Positions 1 through 39,375 of a stretch of 39,907 nucleotides of DNA are shown here, piece after piece. This stretch comes from a virus. The stretch's first letter is position 1; every line of letters begins with the position of its first letter. The notes beneath the pieces are model-generated. The model searched no databases. It worked only from the letters and a program-made list of their open reading frames with translations, and was not told the DNA's origin. The DNA lies in the IMG/VR virus record IMGVR_UViG_3300031344_000012, positions 1-39,907 of that record. One strand, written 5' to 3'. A program made the translations under genes and the position numbers.

Positions 1-75
1 CCAGCCCCAAAAGATAAGGCTCCTCGCGATGGAGGTCAAGGCTGGACAAACGTGCTTGTCTGTATGTTCCATACA
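1..75 (+). other. Stacked hairpins upstream of the first gene
   Basis: Three adjacent stem-loops can be drawn. Bases 1-6 (CCAGCC) pair with 40-45 (GGCTGG) and enclose an inner CTCC/GGAG stem. ACAA at 46-49 pairs with TTGT at 56-59. TGTATG at 61-66 pairs perfectly with CATACA at 70-75. They lie about 50 bp upstream of the start codon at 126, so they could form a structured 5' leader or part of a small RNA whose start lies outside the window. The region is richer in GC than its surroundings. No known riboswitch or tRNA consensus is recognised. Confidence 0.3.
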
Positions 76-125
76 TTGCGGCTCCGACTGGGCGTGGCTA
101 TATTAGCACAGAAAGGTGGTGTTCT

Positions 126-338
126 ATGAAAAAATCTAAAAGAGATATTTATTACAAATATAAAGTAAAAGAAGAGATATATGGGGAGGTTTGCGGACGC
201 TATCCCAAGAAAGCAATGTATAGGACAAGAGCAAGAGCTCAATCCGTTATTGATCTTGCTGGGAAAGGTAAAGATTTATTTATATATAATTGTTCTTACT
301 GTGGGAATTACCATTTAACAAGTCAAATTCAACGATAA
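126..338 (+). CDS. Small basic protein with a C-terminal CxxC motif
   Basis: A 70-residue, strongly basic protein. The N-terminal half is rich in Lys, Arg and Tyr. The C-terminal part holds NCSYCGNYHLT (CxxC followed by a His four residues later), which suggests half of a zinc site or a small zinc knuckle. The start is supported by AAAGGTGG about eight bases upstream of the ATG. It is the only plus-strand gene at the left edge and converges with the membrane protein gene ending at 347. No family is recognised; small phage CxxC/H proteins often bind nucleic acid or a host protein, but that is only a possibility here. Confidence 0.7.
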   Translation: MKKSKRDIYYKYKVKEEIYGEVCGRYPKKAMYRTRARAQSVIDLAGKGKDLFIYNCSYCGNYHLTSQIQR

Positions 339-352
339 GAATGGTTTTATCG
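333..352. terminator. Short hairpin between convergent stop codons
   Basis: CGATAA at 333-338 and TTATCG at 347-352 form a 6-bp stem with an 8-base loop, and each arm contains the stop codon of one of two convergent genes. The stem is short and there is no clear T-run, so termination is only a weak suggestion. Confidence 0.25.
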
Positions 353-538
353 AAGTCTTGGTATTGGTATATTCGCAGTACCGGCGAATAATCCGAAAGC
401 ACTTAGTACATATAATACTGTGCAGATCACAACAACTACATTTATAATTGTTTTGATCTTCGGGTCTAATGGTAGATAACTATTCACAGCAAAAAGTAGC
501 AGACCTATAACTATTAGAACTATTATTAGTCCTAACAT
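347..538 (-). CDS. Thivi_2564-family two-helix membrane protein
   Basis: A 63-residue hydrophobic protein. Residues 1-19 form one membrane helix (LGLIIVLIVIGLLLFAVN), followed by a short loop with the Pro-Leu-Asp-Pro-Lys-Ile-Lys pattern, then a second helix from about 31 to 53. This helix-PxDPKIK-helix layout is the pattern I associate with the Thivi_2564 family of small bacterial membrane proteins, whose function is unknown to me. It is the last gene of the left minus-strand operon, and its ATG directly follows the TAA of the proline-rich microprotein. Its presence in a phage suggests acquisition from a host or a role at the membrane during infection. Confidence 0.7.
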   Translation of the reverse strand: MLGLIIVLIVIGLLLFAVNSYLPLDPKIKTIINVVVVICTVLYVLSAFGLFAGTANIPIPRLR

Positions 539-619
539 TTATTTACCGTCTGATGGTTTTGGTTGTGGAAATGGTGGTTTTGGTTGTGGTTGTGGTTTTG
601 GGTGTGGATGGGTTGTCAT
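539..619 (-). CDS. 26-residue proline-rich microprotein
   Basis: A 26-codon frame, ATG to TAA, preceded by AGGA seven bases upstream and followed directly by the ATG of the membrane protein gene (TAAATG). Eleven of 26 residues are Pro, arranged as PKPQPQPKPP and PQPKP after a His-Pro start, ending in SDGK. Such runs form polyproline-II helices, and in other proteins they act as stiff linkers or SH3-like ligands. Strong repeats (CCACAACCA) also mean the coding signal could be a by-product of simple-sequence DNA. The ribosome binding site and the back-to-back coupling argue that it is translated. Confidence 0.5.
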   Translation of the reverse strand: MTTHPHPKPQPQPKPPFPQPKPSDGK

Positions 620-662
620 TGTTGTTTCCTAATATAATACAGGAATATGGTTTCCAATACAA

Positions 663-827
663 TCAACCATTCGTCGGAACATTCACAACCAACATAAGTC
701 TCTTTACTACCTTGCTTATTCGCACGCAAGACCTGCATATATCAGAACCATCATCATAATATACTGGACGATCGGGCATCTGATCTTCACAGAGAGTGCA
801 AGTTTTGTATTTGATTTTGTCTGTCAT
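663..827 (-). CDS. 54-residue zinc-ribbon microprotein
   Basis: A 54-residue protein starting ATG at 827, one base after the stop of the upstream Cys-rich gene (TAGgATG). It contains CTLC near residue 10 and CRSC near residue 31, a four-Cys zinc-ribbon spacing, with an acidic YYDDGSD stretch between the knuckles. The C-terminus is hydrophobic and Val-rich. A GAGG lies about 11 bases before the start. It belongs to the run of small Cys proteins in this operon. The function is unknown; a structural zinc site is the only supported reading. Confidence 0.55.
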   Translation of the reverse strand: MTDKIKYKTCTLCEDQMPDRPVYYDDGSDICRSCVRISKVVKRLMLVVNVPTNG

Positions 828-828
828 C

Positions 829-1047
829 CTATTCTAGCCTCGCTAATAGATGTCCCACCTCGCATTCACTCAAATGTTTGATTGGCAATTTTTCATACGT
901 CTCATAGTCATATTGACTATACTCTCCACACGCTGGACAACTACCAGATATCTTATCCAATTTACAATGTGTTTTGCAACCATCACAACTACCCTGTGCT
1001 AATTGTTGAATTGCAGATACGAGTTCTTCATAAGTAGGTTTATTCAT
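829..1047 (-). CDS. Duplicated Cys-rich protein, copy A
   Basis: A 72-residue protein from the ATG that follows GGAGCAAACA; a start four codons earlier would consume this ribosome binding site. It has the Cys pattern CDGCKTHC...CPAC (residues about 21-40), probably one zinc site, and a C-terminal helix ending in HLLARLE. A near-identical central segment occurs in the gene at 2864-3079: the block from the QQLAQGSCDGCKTHC stretch to CPACGEYSQYD is the same in both. The two are therefore a recent duplication with diverged ends. Function unknown. Confidence 0.65.
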   Translation of the reverse strand: MNKPTYEELVSAIQQLAQGSCDGCKTHCKLDKISGSCPACGEYSQYDYETYEKLPIKHLSECEVGHLLARLE

Positions 1048-1059
1048 TGTTTGCTCCAT

Positions 1060-1446
1060 TCATATTAGTAATAATAGTTTCTCTAATCGTTCTTTTCCAT
1101 AAATATGTTTGTTATCAAGTTGTGGAATGTGATTACCATTGATCCAATATTCAGTTTCTCCATCACCCCATTCAATAACAGGTCCATCTTCCCGATGACG
1201 TTTGCCATTGAGATACCAATGTTTGTCTCCATTAGCAAGCTCAATAGCAGGACCATCTTCCCGATGACGTTTGCCATTGAGAAACCAACATTTGGTTCCA
1301 TTAGCATACTCAACAGCAGGCATCGTCAATCCAGTTTCTGGATCAATCTCTTCCCGATGAAGTTTGCCATTGAGAAACCAACACTTGTTTCCATTAGCGT
1401 CAGTTTGACAGTATAGTTTTCCAAGTAGTTTTTTGATGAAGTTCAT
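1060..1446 (-). CDS. HREDGPA-repeat protein A
   Basis: A 128-residue protein made mostly of repeats of about 22 residues with the pattern ANGxKxWxLNGKxHREDGPAIE. Roughly three full copies are followed by a degenerate one (GETEYWINGNHIPQLDN) and a C-terminal helix KERLEKLLLLI. These Gly-Asn/Trp-rich beta repeats resemble the MORN-type repeats seen in many phages, giant viruses and some bacteria; no enzymatic residues are visible. Two further genes at 1466 and 2180 share the same build. A short relic frame coding MNKPECKK lies just upstream and overlaps the start, echoing the start of the neighbouring copy and suggesting unequal recombination. The function is probably binding or scaffolding, by inference only. 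Confidence 0.7.
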   Translation of the reverse strand: MNFIKKLLGKLYCQTDANGNKCWFLNGKLHREEIDPETGLTMPAVEYANGTKCWFLNGKRHREDGPAIELANGDKHWYLNGKRHREDGPVIEWGDGETEYWINGNHIPQLDNKHIYGKERLEKLLLLI

Positions 1447-1465
1447 TTTTTACATTCAGGTTTAT

Positions 1466-1837
1466 TCATATTAGTAGTAAAAACTTTTGCAAGTTTTCTT
1501 TTCCATAAATATGTTTGTTATCTAATTGTGGAATGTGATTGCCATTGATATAGTATCGAGTTTCTCCATCAGCAAATTCAATAGCAGGACCATCTTCTCG
1601 ATGACGTTTGTCATTGAGATACCAAGCTTTGTTTCCATCAGCATGCTCAACAGTAGGCATCGTCAATCCAGTTTCTGGATTGATATCTTCTCGATGAAGT
1701 TTGCCACTGAGATACCAAAATTTGCCTCCATCAGCAAACTCAACAGCAGGTCCATCTTTCCGATGAAATATGCCATTGAGATACCACCATTTGTTTCCAT
1801 TAGCATCAATTTCACATTCAGGTTTATCATTATTCAT
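1466..1837 (-). CDS. HREDGPA-repeat protein B
   Basis: A 123-residue paralogue of its neighbours at 1060 and 2180. It has repeats of the type ADGxKxWYLxGKxHRED, one of them interrupted by the insert INPETGLTMPTVE that the copy at 1060 also carries. It ends with the same YYINGNHIPQLDNKHIYGK segment and a Leu-rich tail (LQKFLLLI). The ATG overlaps the stop of the upstream gene as ATGA. Alignment of the three paralogues shows that whole repeats are gained or lost while the C-terminal 35 residues are kept. Confidence 0.7.
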   Translation of the reverse strand: MNNDKPECEIDANGNKWWYLNGIFHRKDGPAVEFADGGKFWYLSGKLHREDINPETGLTMPTVEHADGNKAWYLNDKRHREDGPAIEFADGETRYYINGNHIPQLDNKHIYGKENLQKFLLLI

Positions 1838-2163
1838 ATCAACGCCAATAGTTTTTCTAATCGTTCCAATGTTATATCATATGGTAATAGGCTATTTATT
1901 GTTGCTATCCTTGTCACCGTTATTATTGGAAGACTATTGGTTTTTTGGAGTATCATAGTTGCGTCAACATATGTATTCCAACACACACCATACTCACCTA
2001 AGGTTATGTTCCAATTATAGTAATTAGAACGAACCATTTTACATCTTGGACAGGAATGGAATTCAGGATTTGTATGAATGTGACTTATCCATTTATACTT
2101 CTCCAATCGCATTATATGATTACACCTGCGACAACGCATCCTTTTTCGTGTTCTCCAATTCAT
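1834..2163 (-). CDS. Zinc-finger-like protein with shared C-terminal tail
   Basis: A 109-residue protein starting at the ATG behind GGAGCACACAAC; a TTG five codons upstream is possible but would include that site. The N-terminus is very basic (MNWRTRKRMRC) and leads into CRRC at about residues 11-14 and CPRC at about 38-41, a probable zinc ribbon. The second half is hydrophobic and ends in LERLEKLLALI, the same kind of tail as the HREDGPA-repeat proteins although the rest is unrelated. The bases before the start contain a direct repeat of AATGAATTGGAG, a scar of local duplication. Confidence 0.6.
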   Translation of the reverse strand: MNWRTRKRMRCRRCNHIMRLEKYKWISHIHTNPEFHSCPRCKMVRSNYYNWNITLGEYGVCWNTYVDATMILQKTNSLPIITVTRIATINSLLPYDITLERLEKLLALI

Positions 2164-2179
2164 TGTTGTGTGCTCCAAT

Positions 2180-2467
2180 TCATTTTAGTAGTAATAGTTT
2201 CTCCAATCGTTCTTTTCCATAAATATGTTTGTTATCTAATTGTGGAACGTGATTACCATTGATCCAGTATCGAGTTTCTCCATTAGCAAACTCAACAGCA
2301 GGTCCGTCTTCTCGATGACATTTGCCATTGAGGTACCACCATTTGTCTCCATTAGCACCCTCAATAGCAGGTCCATTTTCCCGATGAAGATTGCCATTGA
2401 GATACCAATATTTGCTTCCATTAGCACTCTCAACAGTAGGTCCGTCTTCCCGATGATTGTCAGTCAT
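2180..2467 (-). CDS. HREDGPA-repeat protein C
   Basis: A 95-residue member of the repeat family at 1060 and 1466. It begins inside a repeat (NHREDGPTVES) and carries two complete ANGxKxWYLNGxxHRExGPA units, the terminal ETRYWINGNHVPQLDN unit and the helix ERLEKLLLLK. The ATG overlaps the preceding stop codon (ATGA). The absence of any N-terminal sequence outside the repeats suggests truncation or repeat loss relative to its sisters. The function is unknown. Confidence 0.68.
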   Translation of the reverse strand: MTDNHREDGPTVESANGSKYWYLNGNLHRENGPAIEGANGDKWWYLNGKCHREDGPAVEFANGETRYWINGNHVPQLDNKHIYGKERLEKLLLLK

Positions 2468-2679
2468 TTCAATACCAGCATCTTCTCGAACCCCTCTGCA
2501 TCAACATTAGCATTATTATATTCATTATATGCTTTGATGAATGCTGCTGGTGTTTCTTTATCAATCAGCGTACCATCACCATATCCATCTTCTTTTATTT
2601 GAACCATTCCAATTCCCATCCACAATGGATCAGTCCAGTATTCTATTGCTAATTTTAGGTGCTCGCGATGGGATGTCAT
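2464..2679 (-). CDS. Small acidic protein, unknown
   Basis: A 71-residue protein beginning MTSHREHLK at an ATG that overlaps the previous stop (ATGA); a start five codons upstream would lie inside the previous gene. It is rich in Tyr, Trp and Asp/Glu, has a Gly-rich turn (DGYGDGTL), and ends in VDAEGFEKMLVLK, a variant of the Leu-rich C-terminal tail found on four neighbours. No family is recognised. Confidence 0.6.
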   Translation of the reverse strand: MTSHREHLKLAIEYWTDPLWMGIGMVQIKEDGYGDGTLIDKETPAAFIKAYNEYNNANVDAEGFEKMLVLK

Positions 2680-2867
2680 TGGTGCCCAGCCCATTCTATT
2701 AGATCATCGATCGCATCGGACTGTGTTGATGGATTGAAAAACTTCTCTGCGAATGCAGTTTGCTCTGCCTGTGAAGCTTGCTTATACCAAGCACTAAATA
2801 TGGCAATTAGTATCTGGTGCTCACCAAATATGGCAATTAGTGTCTGGTGCTGTTGTATTGTTTTCAT
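2676..2867 (-). CDS. Small protein with an internal 10-residue duplication
   Basis: A 63-residue protein translated from an ATGA overlap with the upstream Cys-rich gene. The N-terminus contains a tandem duplication of ten residues, HQTLIAIFGE followed by HQILIAIFSA, which corresponds to the 30-bp DNA repeat listed separately. The rest is helical and Ala/Gln-rich with an acidic end (DAIDDLIEWAGHQ). The function is unknown. Confidence 0.6.
   Translation of the reverse strand: MKTIQQHQTLIAIFGEHQILIAIFSAWYKQASQAEQTAFAEKFFNPSTQSDAIDDLIEWAGHQ
2796..2851. repeat. 30-bp tandem direct repeat, two copies
   Basis: The 26-base unit AATATGGCAATTAGT plus TCTGGTGCT and its flanks occurs at 2796-2821 and 2826-2851 with one mismatch. 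The period is 30 bp, so the reading frame is kept and ten amino acids are duplicated in the gene at 2676. Confidence 0.85.
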
Positions 2868-3079
2868 TTTAGCCGATCCAATAATTGTCCGACCTCACAT
2901 TCTGGTTTATGTATTGCTGGAAGTATTTCATAACAATCATCGTCATATTGACTATACTCTCCGCACGCTGGACAACTACCAGATATCTTATCCAATTTAC
3001 AGTGTGTTTTGCAACCATCACAACTACCCTGTGCTAATTGTTGAATTGCGTATACGAGTTCTTGATATGTAGGTTTCAT
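2864..3079 (-). CDS. Duplicated Cys-rich protein, copy B
   Basis: A 71-residue paralogue of the gene at 829-1047. Both begin with Met-(Asn)-Lys-Pro-Thr-Tyr, share CDGCKTHC and CPACGEYSQYD, and end with a charged C-terminal helix (CEVGQLLDRLK). DNA identity is near complete over about 125 bp of the centre (for example 2950-3072 against 930-1050) and falls at both ends. The ATG overlaps the stop of the upstream gene. A single structural zinc site is likely from the Cys spacing; the role is unknown. Confidence 0.65.
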   Translation of the reverse strand: MKPTYQELVYAIQQLAQGSCDGCKTHCKLDKISGSCPACGEYSQYDDDCYEILPAIHKPECEVGQLLDRLK

Positions 3080-3378
3080 TTATTGCCCTTCACTTTGTTC
3101 CACAACCATTTTATACCACTGAATGACATACCAGATCGTCGTTGTGGTGCTATAACTTCACAAGGTAGGTTATAGTCTTCGTATGATAGGTTTGTATCCA
3201 TTGAAGCCTCTAACATCCAAACTGGTAATATCACGCGGTAGGCACCTTTTCCAACCATATAACTATATACACCGAAAGGTTCGATCTTCCAACCATTAGC
3301 AACAAGAATATCTTCAACATTTATTAGTTGTTGTTCATTGTTTGCTCCATTCATATTTTCAATAGATTGTATTTTCAT
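3076..3378 (-). CDS. Unknown 100-residue protein
   Basis: A 100-residue protein, ATGA-coupled to its upstream neighbour. It has a short N-terminal Asn/Gln-rich stretch, a central beta-rich part (GWKIEPFGVYSYMVGKGAYRV) and a basic C-terminus ending KGNK, the same four residues that end the gene at 3375. The DNA for the N-terminus contains GGAGCAAACAATGAA, the start signal used by other genes of this operon, but in a different frame where it opens a three-codon dead end. That is a visible trace of recombination between neighbouring genes. No family is recognised. Confidence 0.6.
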   Translation of the reverse strand: MKIQSIENMNGANNEQQLINVEDILVANGWKIEPFGVYSYMVGKGAYRVILPVWMLEASMDTNLSYEDYNLPCEVIAPQRRSGMSFSGIKWLWNKVKGNK

Positions 3379-3698
3379 TTATTACCCTTGCGGTAGGCTT
3401 TAACTTCTTCAACCTTTTTATTGAAGTCTTCATCACCAGTATATTTTTCCAATATATCTACATAATCTTCTGCTTCCCAGTATAGAGATAACTCTTCCAT
3501 TGCCATATCATAGTCTGTTTGGACTTCGTTTGTGATAACTCGACGACGTCCATTGCAATGATGACAGAGTTTTGTTCCGAATATGGATGATATATGACAA
3601 CGAGGTTCTCGACCTTTACCACCACAGCATTGGCATTGCTGTATCTTGTCATAATTATCTCTTATAGATTGTAATTCTTCATAAGTAGGTTTATTCAT
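3375..3698 (-). CDS. Zinc-finger (DnaJ-type CxxCxGxG-like) protein
   Basis: A 107-residue protein from the ATG behind GGAGCAAACA. It has CQCCGGKGRE near residue 22 and CHHCNGRRR near residue 45, a spacing like a single pair of DnaJ-type CxxCxGxG knuckles, followed by an acidic Tyr-rich helical half and a Lys-rich end. Its first residues (MNKPTYEEL) match copy A at 829, so the start region has been exchanged. A role in binding a partner protein or nucleic acid is plausible but not shown. Confidence 0.6.
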   Translation of the reverse strand: MNKPTYEELQSIRDNYDKIQQCQCCGGKGREPRCHISSIFGTKLCHHCNGRRRVITNEVQTDYDMAMEELSLYWEAEDYVDILEKYTGDEDFNKKVEEVKAYRKGNK

Positions 3699-3834
3699 TG
3701 TTTGCTCCATTCATTATATCATTGCAATTAGGACATAGCAACGATGTATGCCCTTCTTCTTCTACGTGTTCTGTCATCGTGTTAGCGTCGAACATTTTAC
3801 CACAATCATCGCAACACTTTTGTTGTTGTATCAT
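3691..3834 (-). CDS. 47-residue zinc-ribbon microprotein
   Basis: A 47-residue protein whose ATG overlaps the stop of the upstream gene (ATGA) and whose end overlaps the start of the next gene by eight bases. It has CCDDCGKMF at residues 7-15 and CPNC at 34-37 with a His-containing acidic stretch between them (TEHVEEEGH), a typical two-knuckle zinc ribbon. Its last codons encode MNGANNE and are the same DNA that serves as ribosome binding site and start for the following gene. Function unknown. Confidence 0.6.
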   Translation of the reverse strand: MIQQQKCCDDCGKMFDANTMTEHVEEEGHTSLLCPNCNDIMNGANNE

Positions 3835-4022
3835 TTTGACTGCCTTGGAGATATATGTGTTTGACGATGCGGTTCATATTTGAATGGATTACCAGACCAA
3901 TTCCATTGTTCTGATGGTTGATAATCTATTTTGATTAGATATTCCTTGAATGTTATATCGCTGTGATATTGTTGCCAGTCGTGTCGTAGTATTGATCGTT
4001 TTAGTTTTGATTGTGTGCTCAT
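3831..4022 (-). CDS. Small basic/aromatic protein, unknown
   Basis: A 63-residue protein with a strong ribosome binding site (TAGGAG, seven bases before ATG), which overlaps the stop codon of the 18-residue membrane peptide upstream. It is rich in Gln, Ser, Tyr, Trp and His (for example EQWNWSGNPFKYEPHRQTH) and contains no Cys. It is probably cytosolic. No family is recognised. Confidence 0.6.
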   Translation of the reverse strand: MSTQSKLKRSILRHDWQQYHSDITFKEYLIKIDYQPSEQWNWSGNPFKYEPHRQTHISPRQSK

Positions 4023-4032
4023 TTTTATTCTC

Positions 4033-4089
4033 CTAAAAGTATAGCACCAGATATACTACTAAAAGTATAAATATTAATGCAAGTATCAT
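4033..4089 (-). CDS. 18-residue transmembrane microprotein
   Basis: A 19-codon frame (ATG to TAG) encoding MILALIFILLVVYLVLYF, a single uncharged membrane helix with no other sequence. It is preceded by AAGGACGGG about six bases upstream of the ATG. Its stop codon sits inside the TAGGAG ribosome binding site of the next gene, so translation of the two is probably linked. Alternatively, the stretch could simply be a promoter-like AT-rich spacer, since the only other feature in this 85-bp gap would be a promoter. Confidence 0.5.
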   Translation of the reverse strand: MILALIFILLVVYLVLYF

Positions 4090-4107
4090 TTTCCCGTCCT
4101 TATTAGA

Positions 4108-4581
4108 TTACTCATTGCCGTTAGCCTTGCGCCAGTCGCGAATGAATGATACTTCTTCTTCTGTAAGAAGCATTGGTGTGAGCGGACCTTCTAGTAGCCG
4201 TTTCATATCTTTTACGAATTGCTTTTTCTTTGTTGCAGTCTTTTCTATACTTGGACCTCGTCCTGCTCGTTCTATTACTGCTCCGCCTGCTTTGAGCTTA
4301 TTTGATAATTTGCTAACAGTGCTATTAGCGGTTCCTACTGCGTGTGCTATCTCGGTCTGTTTCTTTCCTGCTAATAGCATTTCGTTTATCTTATTGACCT
4401 GTTGTTGTGTTAGTGGTACTTTCTTTCCGCCTGGCATATCTTCTTCTTCCTTTCTATGTGGTTTGTATTTCCTAAAATAGTTAATATGTTTATCTTCTGG
4501 TATGATACCTTCCTCAAGCCATAATTGAAATTCACTCTCTGTTCTAAATAATCGTCTCGTGAAATCAAGTAGATTGATCAT
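4108..4581 (-). CDS. Helix-turn-helix DNA-binding protein
   Basis: A 157-residue protein. The middle (about residues 56-93) reads LTQQQVNKINEMLLAGKKQT followed by EIAHAVGTANSTVSKLSNKL, a clear resolvase/Hin-type helix-turn-helix with TEIA in the first helix and STVSKL in the recognition helix. The N-terminal 45 residues are charged. A Met-Pro-Gly-Gly-Lys-Lys internal start directly before the HTH could make a shorter form. It overlaps the upstream HTH gene by 17 bp. It is probably a transcription regulator of the accessory operon or of the switch between operons. Confidence 0.7.
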   Translation of the reverse strand: MINLLDFTRRLFRTESEFQLWLEEGIIPEDKHINYFRKYKPHRKEEEDMPGGKKVPLTQQQVNKINEMLLAGKKQTEIAHAVGTANSTVSKLSNKLKAGGAVIERAGRGPSIEKTATKKKQFVKDMKRLLEGPLTPMLLTEEEVSFIRDWRKANGNE

Positions 4582-4978
4582 ATTTATAGAGTTTCTTTAT
4601 GATTTTCCTATACTTATCTGATGATAAGATTATCTTTGGAACTCGTCTCACTATGCCGCCTGCAGGTTTTATATTATTCCTATCGCTATAATCTACATTC
4701 CCAATAATACACTTTACTACTGACGATTGATTTATATTGAGCTCTTTTGCAATCTCATCCTGTGATCTATCTTGTAATATCCTTTCAACTACTATAAATT
4801 GCTTATCAGTTAGATGCTGTTTCAATTCATCAATAATGATGGAGAAGGCTTCTGCATTCATCTCTATTACATTCTCATCAATAATTGATTGTTCAACATA
4901 TGGTGTCCATTTAAGTTGTTCGTCGCTGACTTGTATCTCGGCAAACTTATATTGCATCTCTCTAACTCGCTTGTTCAT
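4565..4978 (-). CDS. Sigma-region-4-like HTH protein
   Basis: A 137-residue protein. The region from about residue 56 (LTDKQFIVVERILQDRSQDE, then IAKELNINQSSVVKCIIGN) has the layout of sigma-70 region 4: a first helix, then SQDEIA and SSVVK as the two HTH helices. It is followed by IKPAGGIVRR. The plus-strand gene at 8883 has the same order (LTDHQ, SQQEIS, STVCK, GN, YGGIHRK), so the two are distant paralogues. It is the first gene after the 5002-5051 hairpin and starts with TAGG upstream of the ATG. A role as a sigma-like or promoter-binding regulator is inferred. Confidence 0.65.
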   Translation of the reverse strand: MNKRVREMQYKFAEIQVSDEQLKWTPYVEQSIIDENVIEMNAEAFSIIIDELKQHLTDKQFIVVERILQDRSQDEIAKELNINQSSVVKCIIGNVDYSDRNNIKPAGGIVRRVPKIILSSDKYRKIIKKLYKYDQST

Positions 4979-5001
4979 ATGAATACCTATATCAGAAAGA
5001 G

Positions 5002-5051
5002 AAATACCGTCTATTATACGGAAAGGACCTAACGTATAATAGACGGTATTT
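5002..5051 (-). terminator. Perfect 18-bp inverted-repeat terminator
   Basis: Arms 5002-5019 and 5034-5051 are exact reverse complements over 18 bp (AAATACCGTCTATTATAC) with a 14-base loop. It lies eight bases past the stop of the ssDNA-binding-like gene; read on minus, the stem runs into TTTCTCTTTC. It probably terminates the ssDNA-binding transcript. The arm also carries TATAAT, so it could double as an operator or promoter for the downstream HTH gene. Confidence 0.7.
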
Positions 5052-5058
5052 AGTTTTA

Positions 5059-5604
5059 TTATGCAAGTACTACTGCTTCAAATGGAAGCTTTGCAATCTG
5101 TTTGTCCATATATTCTTTGTCAGGATTTGCTAATCGTTCGAGGTATTTCATATCGAACTCGTCTACTGCAAGTAATTCACTGGCAGATAGCGGACGTCTT
5201 GGTTTTGGTGCTACTCGATAATATGTGCTTGCTCCACCGTCTGGATTCTTTATGATATTGATATCATATCCGATTGGATCACCCCAGTCGGCATCATTGA
5301 CTAATGCTTGTATTCCTGTGTATATTAGTTGTCCGAAGTCTAATACTTTGATTGTATCATCGGATCGGTCTAATACTGCTGCGTAAAAGTGGATCTGTTC
5401 TTTTACTGGGAGAGAAGTTGTAAGATTAAGTTTGGTGTCTTTACTTACATTGATCCAATGTTTGTTATCGATGTTGTATTTCTTTGCTTTGTATGGATCG
5501 GATACAAAGCGTACGATATTGTTGCCCTTTTGAATTTCGTAGAACTCTGTTTTTACTAAAATTTTCTTATCCGCTTGCTGATCATTCCATAATGAATTGT
5601 TCAT
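5059..5604 (-). CDS. ssDNA-binding protein-like
   Basis: A 181-residue protein from the ATG of MNNSLWND; an upstream GTG/Met 18 codons earlier is less likely. It shows the features of phage single-stranded DNA-binding proteins of the gp32-like OB-fold type: an N-terminal GNNIVRFVSDPYK segment, a central beta strand set (FYAAVLDRSDDTIKVLDFGQ), GDPIGYDINIIKNPDGG, and YYRVAPKPRRPLS near the end. The C-terminus is not strongly acidic. It would coat ssDNA during replication and recombination and fits with the polymerase and endonuclease VII genes just across the divergent control region. It is transcribed alone, with its own promoter and terminator. Confidence 0.6.
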   Translation of the reverse strand: MNNSLWNDQQADKKILVKTEFYEIQKGNNIVRFVSDPYKAKKYNIDNKHWINVSKDTKLNLTTSLPVKEQIHFYAAVLDRSDDTIKVLDFGQLIYTGIQALVNDADWGDPIGYDINIIKNPDGGASTYYRVAPKPRRPLSASELLAVDEFDMKYLERLANPDKEYMDKQIAKLPFEAVVLA

Positions 5605-5617
5605 TGTCTTACTTTCT

Positions 5618-5632
5618 GAATACGTTGTATTC
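5618..5632. promoter_or_regulatory. Operator-like inverted repeat
   Basis: GAATAC GTT GTATTC is a perfect 6-bp inverted repeat with a 3-base centre, lying between the candidate promoter (5667-5695) and the ATG at 5604. It is well placed for an operator or an autoregulatory site. Confidence 0.35.
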
Positions 5633-5666
5633 GTTATCTGCGGTGAACTGCTCACCACATACTATT

Positions 5667-5695
5667 ACTATATCACTGTCTGAGAATTACTGCAA
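5667..5695 (-). promoter_or_regulatory. Candidate sigma-70 promoter for the ssDNA-binding gene
   Basis: On minus, TTGCAG (-35, complement of 5690-5695) and TATAGT (-10, complement of 5667-5672) are separated by exactly 17 bases. Transcription would start near 5660 and give a leader of about 55 bases that contains the inverted repeat at 5618-5632. Confidence 0.5.
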
Positions 5696-5750
5696 TCCAG
5701 GCTTATTCAATTTCTTTTCCACCCTTGTCCAAAAAGAGCTCCAGCTCCAA

Positions 5751-5763
5751 GTTGACCGTCAAC
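5751..5763. promoter_or_regulatory. Operator-like inverted repeat upstream of the plus operon
   Basis: GTTGAC C GTCAAC is a perfect 6-bp inverted repeat with a single central base, ending 16 bp before the start codon at 5780. It may bind a dimeric regulator of the plus-strand operon. No clear -10 box is seen beside it. Confidence 0.3.
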
Positions 5764-5779
5764 CCGAAAGAAGGAACGA

Positions 5780-6139
5780 ATGTCATCCAATAGAATAAAA
5801 CTATTAGAATTAGAACTAAAACTAGCAAAACTAAAAGAATGTTCTTGTAATGATTTTGACTATGAGAACAAGTGTAAAGAATGTGGTGTTGTGTTCGATG
5901 AACACCCAGATGGCTTTCCTAAAGGAAAGGTACAAGTTAAAGTATTGTATGCTAAGATAGATTACTACTCGGAGCGAAATGATTATGGTACTGATACGGA
6001 TTGTGTTCGCGCTACTTGTCCTAACTGCTTACAATCTACCGAGAGTTATGGTGATGGTGACAGCAGTATAAAGAGGTGTCTTGTTCTATTACAACAGCAG
6101 TGTGGTTGTGCTGAGTTCTTTGGAGCAAGTTCTAAGTAA
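5780..6139 (+). CDS. Cys-rich putative zinc-binding protein
   Basis: A 119-residue protein with a strong ribosome binding site (GAAGGA) before ATG. An N-terminal Leu/Lys helix (residues 6-20) precedes Cys pairs CSC, CKEC at about 32-35, CPNC at about 80-83 and CGC at about 108-110, enough for two zinc sites. It is the first gene of the plus operon, ahead of the repeat region and polymerase. The function is unknown; nucleic-acid binding is likely but unproven. Confidence 0.7.
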   Translation: MSSNRIKLLELELKLAKLKECSCNDFDYENKCKECGVVFDEHPDGFPKGKVQVKVLYAKIDYYSERNDYGTDTDCVRATCPNCLQSTESYGDGDSSIKRCLVLLQQQCGCAEFFGASSK

Positions 6140-6144
6140 TAGTT

Positions 6145-6240
6145 CTCTCTCTTCTACTACCTGATTCTTCTACTACCTGATGGGAGAGGATGGGAGAGGA
6201 TGGGAGAGGATGGGAGAGGATGGGAGAGGTAGTGAGAGAG
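6145..6240 (+). repeat. Pyrimidine/purine tandem repeats before the 113-bp element
   Basis: Two copies of the 16-mer TCTTCTACTACCTGAT (6150-6181) are followed by five copies of the decamer TGGGAGAGGA (6181-6230, the last one ending in T). The flanks can pair: CTCTCTC and ACTACC at 6145-6161 match GGTAGT and GAGAGAG at 6228-6240. A purine-rich tract of similar composition precedes the second 113-bp element near 39200-39245. No gene is supported here, although a frame is open by virtue of the repeat. Confidence 0.8.
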
Positions 6241-6349
6241 ACTACGGTACTTAAACAGTATAATATAACTCTTACTTCTCTCGGATCTACCTTGTTTCAT
6301 AGTGTTTCCATTACTTTTTGCCAAAAAACTCGTTTTGCTTCTCCCTTAC
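6237..6349 (+). repeat. 113-bp conserved element, left copy
   Basis: This stretch aligns without gaps to 39263-39375, with about 12 mismatches in 113 bases; the first 65 bases differ at one position. The core begins AGAGACTACGGTACTTAAAC and includes TATAATATAAC and CTCTCGGATCTACC, then a more variable part ending in CAAAAAACTCGTTTT. It lies about 50 bp before the polymerase start, in the same orientation relative to the downstream gene as the right copy. No good -35 box lies 17 bp before the TATAAT. It is probably a phage promoter or replication origin. Confidence 0.85.
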
Positions 6350-6399
6350 CGAACTTATCCGAGACTACCATCAAAAGAAATTAAATACCGTATAGGTTG

Positions 6400-7890
6400 A
6401 TGTTATTATTAGACACACCTACATTTGGCACTACAAAAGGAGATAGAGTGAAGTTCATGAGAAAGGCAGTATCAGCCAATTTTAGAAAGTTTGTTTTCAA
6501 CAAGTATCCAAATCTTTGTAATGACAATCCTATGTCTGAAGTATATAGGAACTTCTTTCGATACTTATGTTTTTCTACTTATGTAGAAAAGAGGGAAGGT
6601 AAGACAAAGGATATGCTTCTAATACCCGCTTGGAAGTTGAAGCAGTTTACCAATCAACCCTTATCCGGACAATTCATTTTAGATAATATGAAAAAGGATG
6701 TATTACCAAACCTTGTTTGGTCGGAGCCATCTAAATTTAGTGATGGGGTAGGATACTTTGGTAGTTGCAGAAGAATACTGAACGATGGTTTTGACGATGA
6801 GATGAATGAAGAACTTGAGTTAGAATTACAAAGAATACCAAGAGCAAAGTCTGGCTTCGTATTCTTTTTTAATGGAAATAATTTTGATCAGTATTGTATT
6901 CGCCAACAAAGATTACAAGAATTATCTCTTCATACAGATTATATTGAAACGTTTGAACTCAATCCTACTCAACGCAAAATATATGATTACCTTAACCGTT
7001 CCGATGGAGAGATCAATGTCCGTAAATTGACAATGAACGCTGCTGCTATCGAGAATGCAATTATACAAATTGAAAACCCTAATAGCCGTAAGATACAGCG
7101 TCGTATCCTAACGTCAATCACAGGTTTTCCTAAGGTCCTTTACGCGCCTTCCAAAGAAGACCGCACACCGCGCCTCTCCTGTATCAATGATAGCTTCATC
7201 ACATTGAAGAGGGAAGTAAGGAAAGCATTCTCTATTGGTTGGACAGAAGTTGATCTTGAAAGTTCTCAATTCTGTATCTTCAGCAAAGAGGTGAATGCTC
7301 CATTATCAGAAAGCCTTATTGCTTCTGATCATAATATATGGGAGTACTTTGCTTCTACCTGTGGTGTTGAACTAACACCAATGGTAAAAAACGATGTATT
7401 CAAACCAACAATGTATGGGATTGTTTTTGGTCAAGGTGATAGAAAACGAAATGAAAGATTGAAGAAGTATAATTTTCTAAATCTATTAGATAATCCTATC
7501 ATAAAGGAGTTGTTAGAATATCGTAATATATATTATAAGAAAATACAGGATGAAGGTTTTATATATGATGCTTGGGGGAATAAATTAGATCTAAAAGAAA
7601 GAATTGAATTATTCGATAAATTGAAATTGAAAAAGAATCCTATAGCATCGCTTGTATCATCTCGCATTCAATCTATCGAGATGTCTATTATAGAACCAAT
7701 ATATGATATTGCAATAGAATATGGAGATACATATCTTTTCCATATATATGGACACCAACACGATGGAATGACAATGTCATTCAATAATAAAGAGAAACAG
7801 CCATATGTATTGAGGCTGATGAGAGAAGCAGTTAGTGAAAGAGCAAAACAATTCGGTATAACAATGAAATTAGAAAGCAAGGATCTATGA
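6400..7890 (+). CDS. Family A (Pol I superfamily) polymerase, exonuclease-less
   Basis: A 496-residue nucleotidyltransferase; I chose the ATG behind ATAGG over the TTG one codon upstream. The C-terminal half follows the Pol A order: PRLSCIND with a basic helix (like PNLQNIP...R.AF), motif A VDLESSQF (Asp near 285), motif B KPTMYGIVFG (Lys near 335, Tyr 339, Phe 343), GFIYDAWGNKLDL, the SSRIQSIEMSII helix with its conserved Gln, and motif C HQHDGM (Asp near 455). The steric-gate Glu of DYSQIE is replaced by Gln, and motif C has Gly after HD. The roughly 230 N-terminal residues are not a recognisable 3'-5' exonuclease. The size and exonuclease-less layout recall the TV-Pol group of superfamily A polymerases. 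Probably the replicative polymerase; RNA polymerase or primase activity cannot be excluded. Confidence 0.75.
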   Translation: MLLLDTPTFGTTKGDRVKFMRKAVSANFRKFVFNKYPNLCNDNPMSEVYRNFFRYLCFSTYVEKREGKTKDMLLIPAWKLKQFTNQPLSGQFILDNMKKDVLPNLVWSEPSKFSDGVGYFGSCRRILNDGFDDEMNEELELELQRIPRAKSGFVFFFNGNNFDQYCIRQQRLQELSLHTDYIETFELNPTQRKIYDYLNRSDGEINVRKLTMNAAAIENAIIQIENPNSRKIQRRILTSITGFPKVLYAPSKEDRTPRLSCINDSFITLKREVRKAFSIGWTEVDLESSQFCIFSKEVNAPLSESLIASDHNIWEYFASTCGVELTPMVKNDVFKPTMYGIVFGQGDRKRNERLKKYNFLNLLDNPIIKELLEYRNIYYKKIQDEGFIYDAWGNKLDLKERIELFDKLKLKKNPIASLVSSRIQSIEMSIIEPIYDIAIEYGDTYLFHIYGHQHDGMTMSFNNKEKQPYVLRLMREAVSERAKQFGITMKLESKDL

Positions 7891-8114
7891 AAAAGAAAAT
7901 AAAGAAGAAGATCGATGTAGAAGCACTAATAGTTGAATGTGAAAAAAATAAGGAAATTATGAAAAACTCACAACCAAAAGAAGAAGTTGAAGAAGAAGAT
8001 GATGAATATGATGATGGAATGTGTTGGGGTTGTTTGGAGGAGACGGATGGTTCGGAGTCTTGTGGCAGAAATGCCTGTAATGCATATATAGAAAATCTAA
8101 TGGGAAGGGACTAA
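7887..8114 (+). CDS. Small charged protein with Cys cluster
   Basis: A 75-residue protein translated from an ATGA overlap with the polymerase stop. It has a very basic start (MKKKIKKKID), a highly acidic middle (EEVEEEDDEYDDG) and a C-terminal CWGC...C...C cluster (residues about 46-64) that could bind one zinc. The tight coupling suggests a polymerase accessory role, but no family is recognised. Confidence 0.6.
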   Translation: MKKKIKKKIDVEALIVECEKNKEIMKNSQPKEEVEEEDDEYDDGMCWGCLEETDGSESCGRNACNAYIENLMGRD

Positions 8115-8119
8115 TAGAT

Positions 8120-8449
8120 ATGAGTAAGTATAGTGAAACTCTAAAACAGATGGTTCTAACAGCAAAGTTCAATAAAAACCTTGTTCTATGTATTCATATG
8201 CGTGGACTACAGGGGTTAAGATATTCTTTTGAAATATGTACGGTTAATGAAAAGGCTTATGCTACCGTAACTGATGCTATCTTAGAAAATGGTAATGGTT
8301 ATCCATTTTTTGAAACAAAACTAAAGTGGAGTCAAAATCATGGTAATAAGATTAATCCCTGTACTATATGTGCCGCTAATGATCCTAGTTGGGGATGGGA
8401 AAGGATCTTCCATAACCCAGAAGCTCAAAAGTTCATGGTGATAGCATGA
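8120..8449 (+). CDS. Unknown 109-residue protein
   Basis: A 109-residue protein with start codon five bases after the upstream stop. It contains CTIC near residue 81, followed by the Trp-rich NDPSWGWERIF segment. The next gene starts inside its stop codon (ATGA). No family is recognised; its place between the polymerase and endonuclease VII suggests a DNA-metabolism role. Confidence 0.6.
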   Translation: MSKYSETLKQMVLTAKFNKNLVLCIHMRGLQGLRYSFEICTVNEKAYATVTDAILENGNGYPFFETKLKWSQNHGNKINPCTICAANDPSWGWERIFHNPEAQKFMVIA

Positions 8450-8886
8450 CATACAATGCCGAAAAGAGACGCCAACATTACATCAAGAATAAGAAACAAG
8501 TTCTTGAATATCAGAATCAGTACTATACTGATCATAAAGAAGAAAGACAAGAGTATTCAAAGCAATACCACCTTGATAATGTAGAGGAGAAGAAAGAATA
8601 TAAATTAGAGGTTAGGTATAGTATTACACAAGAGCAATACAACAAGATGTTTGCTGATCAAAATGGATGCTGTGCTATCTGTGGGAAACACCAGAGTAAT
8701 TATATAAAAGCTCTTCATGTGGATCATGATCATTTTACGGGGGTTACCAGAGAACTGTTATGTGTAGTCTGTAATGTGTATCTTGGACGTATTGAAAACC
8801 CTGAAAGCAAAATCAAGGCTAAAAATCCAAAACTAATCGCAAGAGCAATGAAGTACATCAACAAACACAAAGGGACAATAAAATGA
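8446..8886 (+). CDS. Recombination endonuclease VII (HNH)
   Basis: A 146-residue protein of the T4 gp49/EndoVII family. An N-terminal basic helical stretch of about 55 residues is followed by YSITQEQYNKMFADQNGCC, CAIC (Cys 76 and 79), the beta-beta-alpha metal motif HVDHDHFTGV (residues 91-100), RELLCVVCNVYLG (Cys 106 and 109, Asn 111) and a C-terminal helix. These are the zinc ligands and catalytic His/Asp of the fold. It would resolve branched DNA before packaging. It is coupled by ATGA on both sides. Confidence 0.92.
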   Translation: MTYNAEKRRQHYIKNKKQVLEYQNQYYTDHKEERQEYSKQYHLDNVEEKKEYKLEVRYSITQEQYNKMFADQNGCCAICGKHQSNYIKALHVDHDHFTGVTRELLCVVCNVYLGRIENPESKIKAKNPKLIARAMKYINKHKGTIK

Positions 8887-9335
8887 AAACATACACAAAG
8901 TCTTATGAACAATATGGGAAGGCTTATTATCAAACGCATAAAGAAGAAATGGATGCAAAGTCTATCGCATATGCTAAGAACCCGAAGAACAGGAAACGAA
9001 TAACTGAACGAAACCGCGTCCTAAGATGGGAGAAGAAGGGGTTAGTAGTGCCACAACTTGAATACTCTTTCTACAGAGACACGTTAGAGAAGTTGTCGTA
9101 TGACGATCCATTATGGAATAAACTATTCGCATTGAAGTTGACTGATCATCAGAGAGAATTATTAGATTTGATCAGGTATGGGTATTCTCAACAGGAAATA
9201 TCTGCAATGTATAACAGCACAAATAATTCTACGGTTTGTAAAGCAGTGAATGGGAACCTTGTGTATTTTGAAGATGGAAGCATCAAGAGATATGGTGGCA
9301 TACATCGCAAAGCCAACAAAGCAGGGATACTGTAA
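8883..9335 (+). CDS. Sigma-region-4-like HTH protein, paralogue
   Basis: A 150-residue protein. The N-terminal half (YGKAYYQTHKEEMDAKSIA, then basic Asn/Arg helices) resembles the N-terminal extension of the endonuclease VII next to it. Residues 86-143 carry LTDHQRELLDLIRYG, SQQEIS, NNSTVCKAVNGN and YGGIHRK, the same layout as the HTH protein at 4565. The two lie in opposite-strand operons on either side of the control region, so a role in coordinating transcription is likely. The stop lies just before the shared terminator at 9337. Confidence 0.65.
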   Translation: MKTYTKSYEQYGKAYYQTHKEEMDAKSIAYAKNPKNRKRITERNRVLRWEKKGLVVPQLEYSFYRDTLEKLSYDDPLWNKLFALKLTDHQRELLDLIRYGYSQQEISAMYNSTNNSTVCKAVNGNLVYFEDGSIKRYGGIHRKANKAGIL

Positions 9336-9336
9336 T

Positions 9337-9372
9337 AAAAATAAAACTCCAACTACCTTTCGATAGTTGGAG
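9337..9372 (-). terminator. Rho-independent terminator of the late minus operon
   Basis: CTCCAACTA at 9347-9355 pairs perfectly with TAGTTGGAG at 9364-9372 around an 8-base loop. On minus the stem is followed by TTTTATTTTTATT, a good U-tract, so the late transcript ends here. On plus there is no T-run, but the stem may also limit read-through from the early operon. Confidence 0.8.
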
Positions 9373-9395
9373 GATATCTTCTTAGAGGGGATTTA

Positions 9396-39153: not shown

Positions 39154-39262
39154 TTGGTAGTAGAAGTAATAATAGTTCTTCTTCTATCTAGTGGTTGTAG
39201 GAGAAGAGGTAGAGAGAGGTAGGAGAGAGGTTGGGAGAGGTAGGAATAAGTTGGTAAGTGAT
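39154..39262 (+). other. Purine-rich gap preceding the right 113-bp element
   Basis: A gap of about 109 bases that contains no supported gene. It has TAGAAG (39161-39166) and TTCTTCTTCTA, which can pair, and then a purine-rich run of GGTAGAGAGAGG and GGAGAGAGG-type units similar to the tandem repeat at 6181-6230. Confidence 0.5.
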
Positions 39263-39375
39263 AGAGACTACGGTACTTAAACAATATAATATAACTCTTA
39301 CTTCTCTCGGATCTACCTTGTTCTGTAGTGTTTCAATTACAATTTTACAAAAAACTCGTTTTACTTGTCCCTAAC
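39263..39375 (+). repeat. 113-bp conserved element, right copy
   Basis: Ungapped partner of 6237-6349 (about 89 percent identity; nearly perfect over the first 65 bases). It ends about 30 bp before the next start codon and is oriented the same way relative to the downstream gene as the left copy, with a similar purine-rich stretch before it. This makes a shared promoter or replication element the best reading. Confidence 0.85.

Follow-up and report, generated by a model that had tools for sequence, protein, structure and literature searches.

The gene and its relatives

How a tailed phage of about 40 kb might copy its genome with a single large replication enzyme, and whether that enzyme could start DNA chains as well as extend them, are the questions raised by one open reading frame in the window, which is the whole of an IMG/VR record, 39,907 bases long. 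The sequence is that of a myovirus, with genes for a terminase, portal, sheath, baseplate J and hub proteins, and the contig may be incomplete. The polymerase frame itself was confirmed as real (Table 1). Searched singly, its product matched nothing in Pfam, NCBIfam or the PDB and gave one chance match only in PHROG; phage records contained no match, nor did viral contigs scanned with the window protein, the single-strand DNA-binding protein (SSB) of the same phage or two-row alignments, nor genome contigs in an initial scan for polymerase relatives. Thirteen matches to a spaced motif pattern in viral contigs were discarded as chance occurrences with in-frame stops, and the structure model from the single sequence was uninformative. 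Hence the family goes unrecognised from one sequence by every library searched.

Table 1. Positions of the polymerase gene, its motifs and neighbouring features in the window.
Feature	Position	Strand	Details
TV-Pol-lineage superfamily A polymerase (assignment supported by sequence)	6397..7890	+	497 aa; TTG start, or in-frame ATG at 6400
R259, template-hairpin Arg (Pol I R668)	7171..7173	+	Invariant in 14-row and 25-row alignments
Motif A, D286-L-E-S-S-Q291	7252..7269	+	D286 = D705; Q291 at E710 ribose-gate position
Motif B (O helix), K336-P-T-M-Y340-G-I-V-F344-G345	7402..7431	+	Equivalent to K758, F762, Y766, G767
Q425-S-I-E428, QxxE helix of the clade (Q849 of Pol I)	7669..7680	+	Family alignments
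Motif C, H455-D456-G457	7759..7767	+	D456 = D882, second metal-binding Asp
gp32-like SSB, 199 aa	5059..5658	-	PHROG 1192 E=3.7e-9; PHROG 1607 E=1.4e-5
Recombination endonuclease VII	8446..8886	+	Pfam E=7e-22
Non-coding stretch before polymerase	6179..6349		10-bp tandem repeats and a 119-nt repeat recurring at 39257-39375

The only relative detected by tblastn in annotated collections was a Deinococcus peraridilitoris plasmid protein (25%, E=8e-9), with which the window protein has in common the motifs PR, DLExxQ, K...Y..VFG, DA[WF]G, QSxE and HDG. Whole genomes were searched with profiles built from these two sequences and, at E<=0.01, yielded relatives in 7 of 395 Bacteroidota, one of 398 Pseudomonadota and 5 of 400 Chloroflexota genomes, three of the last five being convincing and one of these split; none was found in 111 Deinococcota genomes. 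One clear member (2.5e-68) was identified among 392 Planctomycetota genomes with a 14-row profile, and scanning viral contigs with four family members revealed three IMG/VR relatives (L156, L157 and L158). The family is sparse, occurring in Bacteroidota, Chloroflexota, Planctomycetota and Pseudomonadota, on the Deinococcus plasmid and on these three contigs. Genes of the XerC/D-like recombinase family lie near about eight of the bacterial relatives, which fits carriage by mobile elements. The split Chloroflexota member (L151, 7673-8167 and 10468-11424) is broken into two parts separated by 2.3 kb, both of them 80-87% identical to the unbroken L150 copy, which indicates that an insertion or intron interrupts the polymerase gene, and a single Bacteroidota genome (G331) contains two divergent copies (L143 and L147).

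The relative on the 40,144-bp L158 contig is 34% identical to the window polymerase over the whole protein (3e-79). The window and this contig have terminase, portal, sheath and baseplate genes in common, among other structural genes, and hence the contig represents a related phage; as joining its ends yields one continuous reading frame, it appears to be complete or close to it. Those of its larger non-structural genes that were scanned encode an integrase, an HNH endonuclease and a regulator, with the scan extending to part of the small genes. L156 and L157 belong to a second phage lineage, and the polymerase family is thus kept in at least two. A gene adjoining the polymerase is conserved in this second lineage (58%; L159 7942-8628 and L161 14843-15553), and its product resembles PDB 2k0m together with the C-terminal part of the largest subunits of plant RNA polymerases IV and V.

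Catalytic core and ribose gate

The first-pass annotation had read motifs A, B and C in Pol A order, and this is borne out by the alignment of a 13-row family core with a PolA profile (hhalign, E=1.6e-11 over 266 columns), in which the hairpin Arg, both Asp residues, the O-helix Lys and motif C all line up. When about 100 other phage ORFs were compared with the same profile, no non-PolA score fell below 0.022; searched against the whole PDB, the 14-row profile matched Taq (6.3e-6) and Klenow (8.4e-5), then Bst, Pol theta and Pol nu. Therefore the superfamily A match is beyond chance. Against a local ORF set, a hidden Markov model of the core retrieved E. coli Pol I (1.5e-6) and the phiCbK (8.6e-5) and T7 (4e-4) DNA polymerases. 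The 14-row profile also reaches long frames in 29 Planctomycetota genomes; all 11 of those inspected carry DYSQIE and HDE, and are cellular Pol I. AlphaFold models built from the window protein and its three viral relatives have palm and fingers mostly at pLDDT 75-92 and a poorly modelled N-terminal half, and the best 50 Foldseek matches in the PDB are without exception DNA polymerases of family A (best E=2.3e-7). Kinship to T7 RNA polymerase (RNAP) was considered and found no support, given an hhalign value of 0.22 against a single-sequence template and the absence of this enzyme from the family HMM matches. The affinity in both sequence and fold is with DNA polymerases (Taq, Klenow, theta, nu), not T7-type RNA polymerases. 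With both metal-binding Asp residues, the hairpin Arg and the O-helix Lys in superfamily A order (D286, D456, R259 and K336), the window protein carries what is, by sequence, an intact superfamily A catalytic core. It has no sign of an exonuclease domain, as the earlier reading held: none was matched within its 497 aa in the Pfam, PHROG, NCBIfam and PDB searches.

Two further claims, that the ribose-gate Glu is replaced by Gln in DLESSQ and that motif B has Tyr and Phe exchanged relative to Pol I, hold in the family alignment, where Q291 falls on E710, Y340 on F762 and F344 on Y766; the swap was therefore correctly read. In the 25-row alignment, Glu occupies the E710 position in each of the seven ordinary PolAs and in none of the 18 members of the window clade (Gln in 12, His in five, Asn in one). 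The gate change is common to the whole sampled clade, rather than a quirk of the window protein. Fourteen of these 18 have Tyr at the F762 position, a residue also found there in the T7 and phiCbK DNA polymerases. HDG, which had been singled out against HDE at motif C, is indeed present, but taken alone it is unremarkable, since HDS or HDA stands at this place in the ordinary phage PolAs that were aligned.

The E710A variant of Klenow admits ribonucleotides. In Pol I, E710 sterically blocks ribonucleotides and F762 constrains the nucleotide (PMC9324360); judging from the alignment, both positions are altered in the window polymerase. However, Gln is similar to Glu in bulk and His is not small either, so sugar discrimination may remain.

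Kinship with TV-Pol

The resemblance to TV-Pols that the first-pass annotation remarked upon was supported by both profile comparison and phylogeny. Microcystis phage Ma-LMM01 is reported to carry a TV-Pol element (PMC2579912), which we infer to be gp030, a protein of about 506 aa encoded beside transposase genes and the best family match in that genome. A tblastn search with gp030 led to Calothrix and Polaromonas plasmid proteins encoded near resolvase or recombinase genes. The TV set aligned with the family core at 1.5e-16, the comparison value for PolA against TV being 1.3e-3. Leaving out L148, a family row that lies close to the Polaromonas protein, gave 1.1e-12; an alignment of the window, L158 and Deinococcus proteins only gave 1.5e-10 to TV and 7.9e-6 to PolA. 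On its own gp030 matches the family weakly (0.003-0.007), hence the TV-Pol link runs mainly through Polaromonas.

In a maximum-likelihood tree of 25 rows, the seven ordinary PolAs split from all other sequences at 100/100, placing the polymerase outside them, and the Ma-LMM01 and Polaromonas TV proteins are nested in the window clade. When either the window pair or the TV trio was constrained to lie beside PolA, AU tests did not reject the placement (p 0.17 and 0.38), results which bear on branching order within the clade.

The published TV-Pols (Iyer, Abhiman and Aravind 2008, PMC2579912), as represented by gp030 and WP_181374945 of Polaromonas plasmid pH8NP1, are likewise stand-alone cores of around 500 aa with no exonuclease, and a globular protein of 497 aa without a nuclease domain fits the 400-600 residues given for the group. 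Common to both sides are the hairpin Arg, the two Asp residues, the O-helix Lys, QxxE, HDG and an association with mobile elements, and the two examples have His at the gate position in our alignment. Of the TV-Pol RxxxK signature in the first fingers helix, K336 is kept, whereas Asn332 stands at the place of the Arg, with Lys331 one residue before; in our own alignment several relatives have Lys at that place, and gp030 also lacks the Arg. TV-Pols have a two-helix coiled-coil thumb ahead of the hairpin; in the window protein helices are predicted, with low model confidence, at residues 190-242. The differences are an identity below 25%, an O-helix Tyr where the examples have Leu, and the location in a tailed phage's own genome, not in an inserted transposon. 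The endonuclease VII gene is close to the polymerase gene but unfused, and in the window there is no D5 helicase fusion or neighbour, and no recombinase or transposase neighbour; such linkage is seen in many TV-Pols but not all, and its lack does not exclude a TV-Pol, since the original description already included stand-alone forms. DNA polymerase I (Klenow, Taq) and the T7-like phage DNA polymerases agree with the window protein in palm, fingers, motif order and spacing, but have a Glu gate and an exonuclease domain and form the separate clade. Sequence comparison thus supports placing the window polymerase in the TV-Pol lineage of superfamily A, as a new branch of a known, nearly uncharacterised kind.

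Possible roles in phage replication

That the polymerase is the only replicative enzyme in the window stands in so far as helicase and primase families had no match in any of the 59 ORFs; the earlier reading had, however, overlooked the genes for the SSB and endonuclease VII. Apart from the polymerase, every ORF in the non-structural stretches (1-9395 and after 37,880) is shorter than 200 aa, leaving no room for a large helicase- or primase-sized gene, and among recognised NTPases only the terminase has a Walker A motif. The SSB is possibly a partner of the polymerase, and the endonuclease likely acts in junction resolution. The 119-nt repeat ahead of the polymerase is 89% identical to its second copy near the right end, each lying beside short GGGAGAG-type tandem repeats (stretches 6179-6349 and 39197-39375), and one might speculate that this region is a promoter or origin. 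Just downstream of the SSB gene is a strong inverted repeat with 37-nt arms (4984-5069), possibly a terminator.

Since no other large replication enzyme was found in the phage, the polymerase may both start and extend DNA copies. Our leading proposal, held at slightly less than even confidence, is a TV-Pol-lineage primase-polymerase that starts replication of the genome of this ~40-kb myovirus with the SSB and host factors. By analogy with priming by CcPol-MP, it would begin the complementary strand on SSB-bound single-stranded DNA by making its first stretch, and would then work with, or hand over to, the host helicase and replisome; it may also extend. Loss of the Glu and the O-helix change from Phe to Tyr may relax sugar choice and allow priming from abundant NTPs, which is the least certain step, the bulk of Gln arguing against it. 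TV-Pol kinship, the changed gate, the lack of a helicase or primase among the ORFs and the presence of an SSB in the same phage combine to make this role a prospect approaching, though not reaching, an even one.

TV-Pols have been predicted to prime and polymerise (PMC2579912). CcPol, which is also called TV-Pol, keeps E710 and F762 and uses only dNTPs (PMC7581432), and primes de novo together with a partner resembling an SSB (PMC7581432, PMC10061031). Priming therefore needs no gate loss, and the loss of the gate is no proof of priming. The CcPol-MP primase of SCC elements, compared here by its published description, similarly pairs a small family A polymerase with an element-encoded SSB; there, however, the SSB is the next gene and is followed by a Rep helicase, whereas in the window the SSB gene lies about 740 bp away on the other strand, with no helicase, and both residues that CcPol keeps are altered. 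Counting against a primase-polymerase are this position of the SSB gene, which shares no operon with the polymerase, the failure to find an SSB counterpart in the related phage contigs, the lack of a TV-Pol-type helicase neighbour and the possible incompleteness of the contig.

A rather less probable reading, though still a serious one, is a primer-dependent DNA polymerase of the same lineage, which would do no more than extend host-made primers or recombination intermediates and in which Gln or His serves as the gate of a dNTP enzyme. The best matches are DNA polymerases, both gate residues are bulky, and a phage endonuclease VII and SSB fit recombination-linked synthesis; on the other hand neither an exonuclease nor a processivity factor was found, and TV-Pol kinship and the absent primase point to self-starting.

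Accessory repair or gap filling, with the host replicating the phage genome, is unlikely. The small size and lack of a proofreading domain would suit it, and a repair role has been proposed for the extra phage PolAs of the divPolA2 type (PMC11348598), but divPolA2 accompanies a regular DNA polymerase, whereas no other polymerase was found in this phage, and the window family is kept in more than one phage lineage. The divPolA2 proteins of barbaviruses and Vibrio phages (PMC11348598) also have a compact PolA-like palm, an uncharacterised N-terminal domain and no exonuclease; identity with them was nevertheless rejected, as there is no detectable similarity to the window polymerase and they keep the Glu (DFKAFE), along with FDE, beside a regular PolB. 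Relatives of divPolA2, annotated only as hypothetical, are widespread in Vibrio phages, including ICP1.

A single-subunit RNA polymerase for phage transcription is very improbable: the gate Glu is absent and motif C is without Glu, as in T7 RNAP, but the family profile finds Pol I instead, the motif-A spacing is that of Pol I, and the N-terminal half is unlike the T7 RNAP promoter-binding domain by sequence. Least credible of all is a decayed or inactive polymerase, to which the replaced Glu and the Asn at the O-helix Arg position might point, given an open frame of 497 codons, intact catalytic residues and a related phage retaining 34% identity over the whole length.

If the enzyme is a primase-polymerase, a broader and rather doubtful extension is that the sampled TV-Pol-type clade without the Glu gate consists of mixed-sugar primase-polymerases, one of which, with an SSB, would replace primase, helicase loader and polymerase in ~40-kb tailed phages, a minimal and previously undescribed way of starting replication. 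CcPol, the only TV-Pol with tested activity that we found in the literature, retains both sugar-selecting residues of Pol I; a clade without the Glu, and mostly with Tyr for Phe, therefore offers a natural test of whether family A enzymes need this Glu to make DNA only. The active-site prediction is specific and easily tested, and the TV-Pol group is now placed in tailed phages, as the only large replication enzyme recognised there.

Elsewhere in the window, small adjoining genes at 1058-2496 are built from a 69-nt (23-aa) repeat of approximate form NGxKxWYLNGKxHREDGPAxE, in paralogous copies, and 4565-4978 encodes a small protein with a helix-turn-helix like that of sigma-70 region 4 (Pfam E=9e-5, just below the cut-off).
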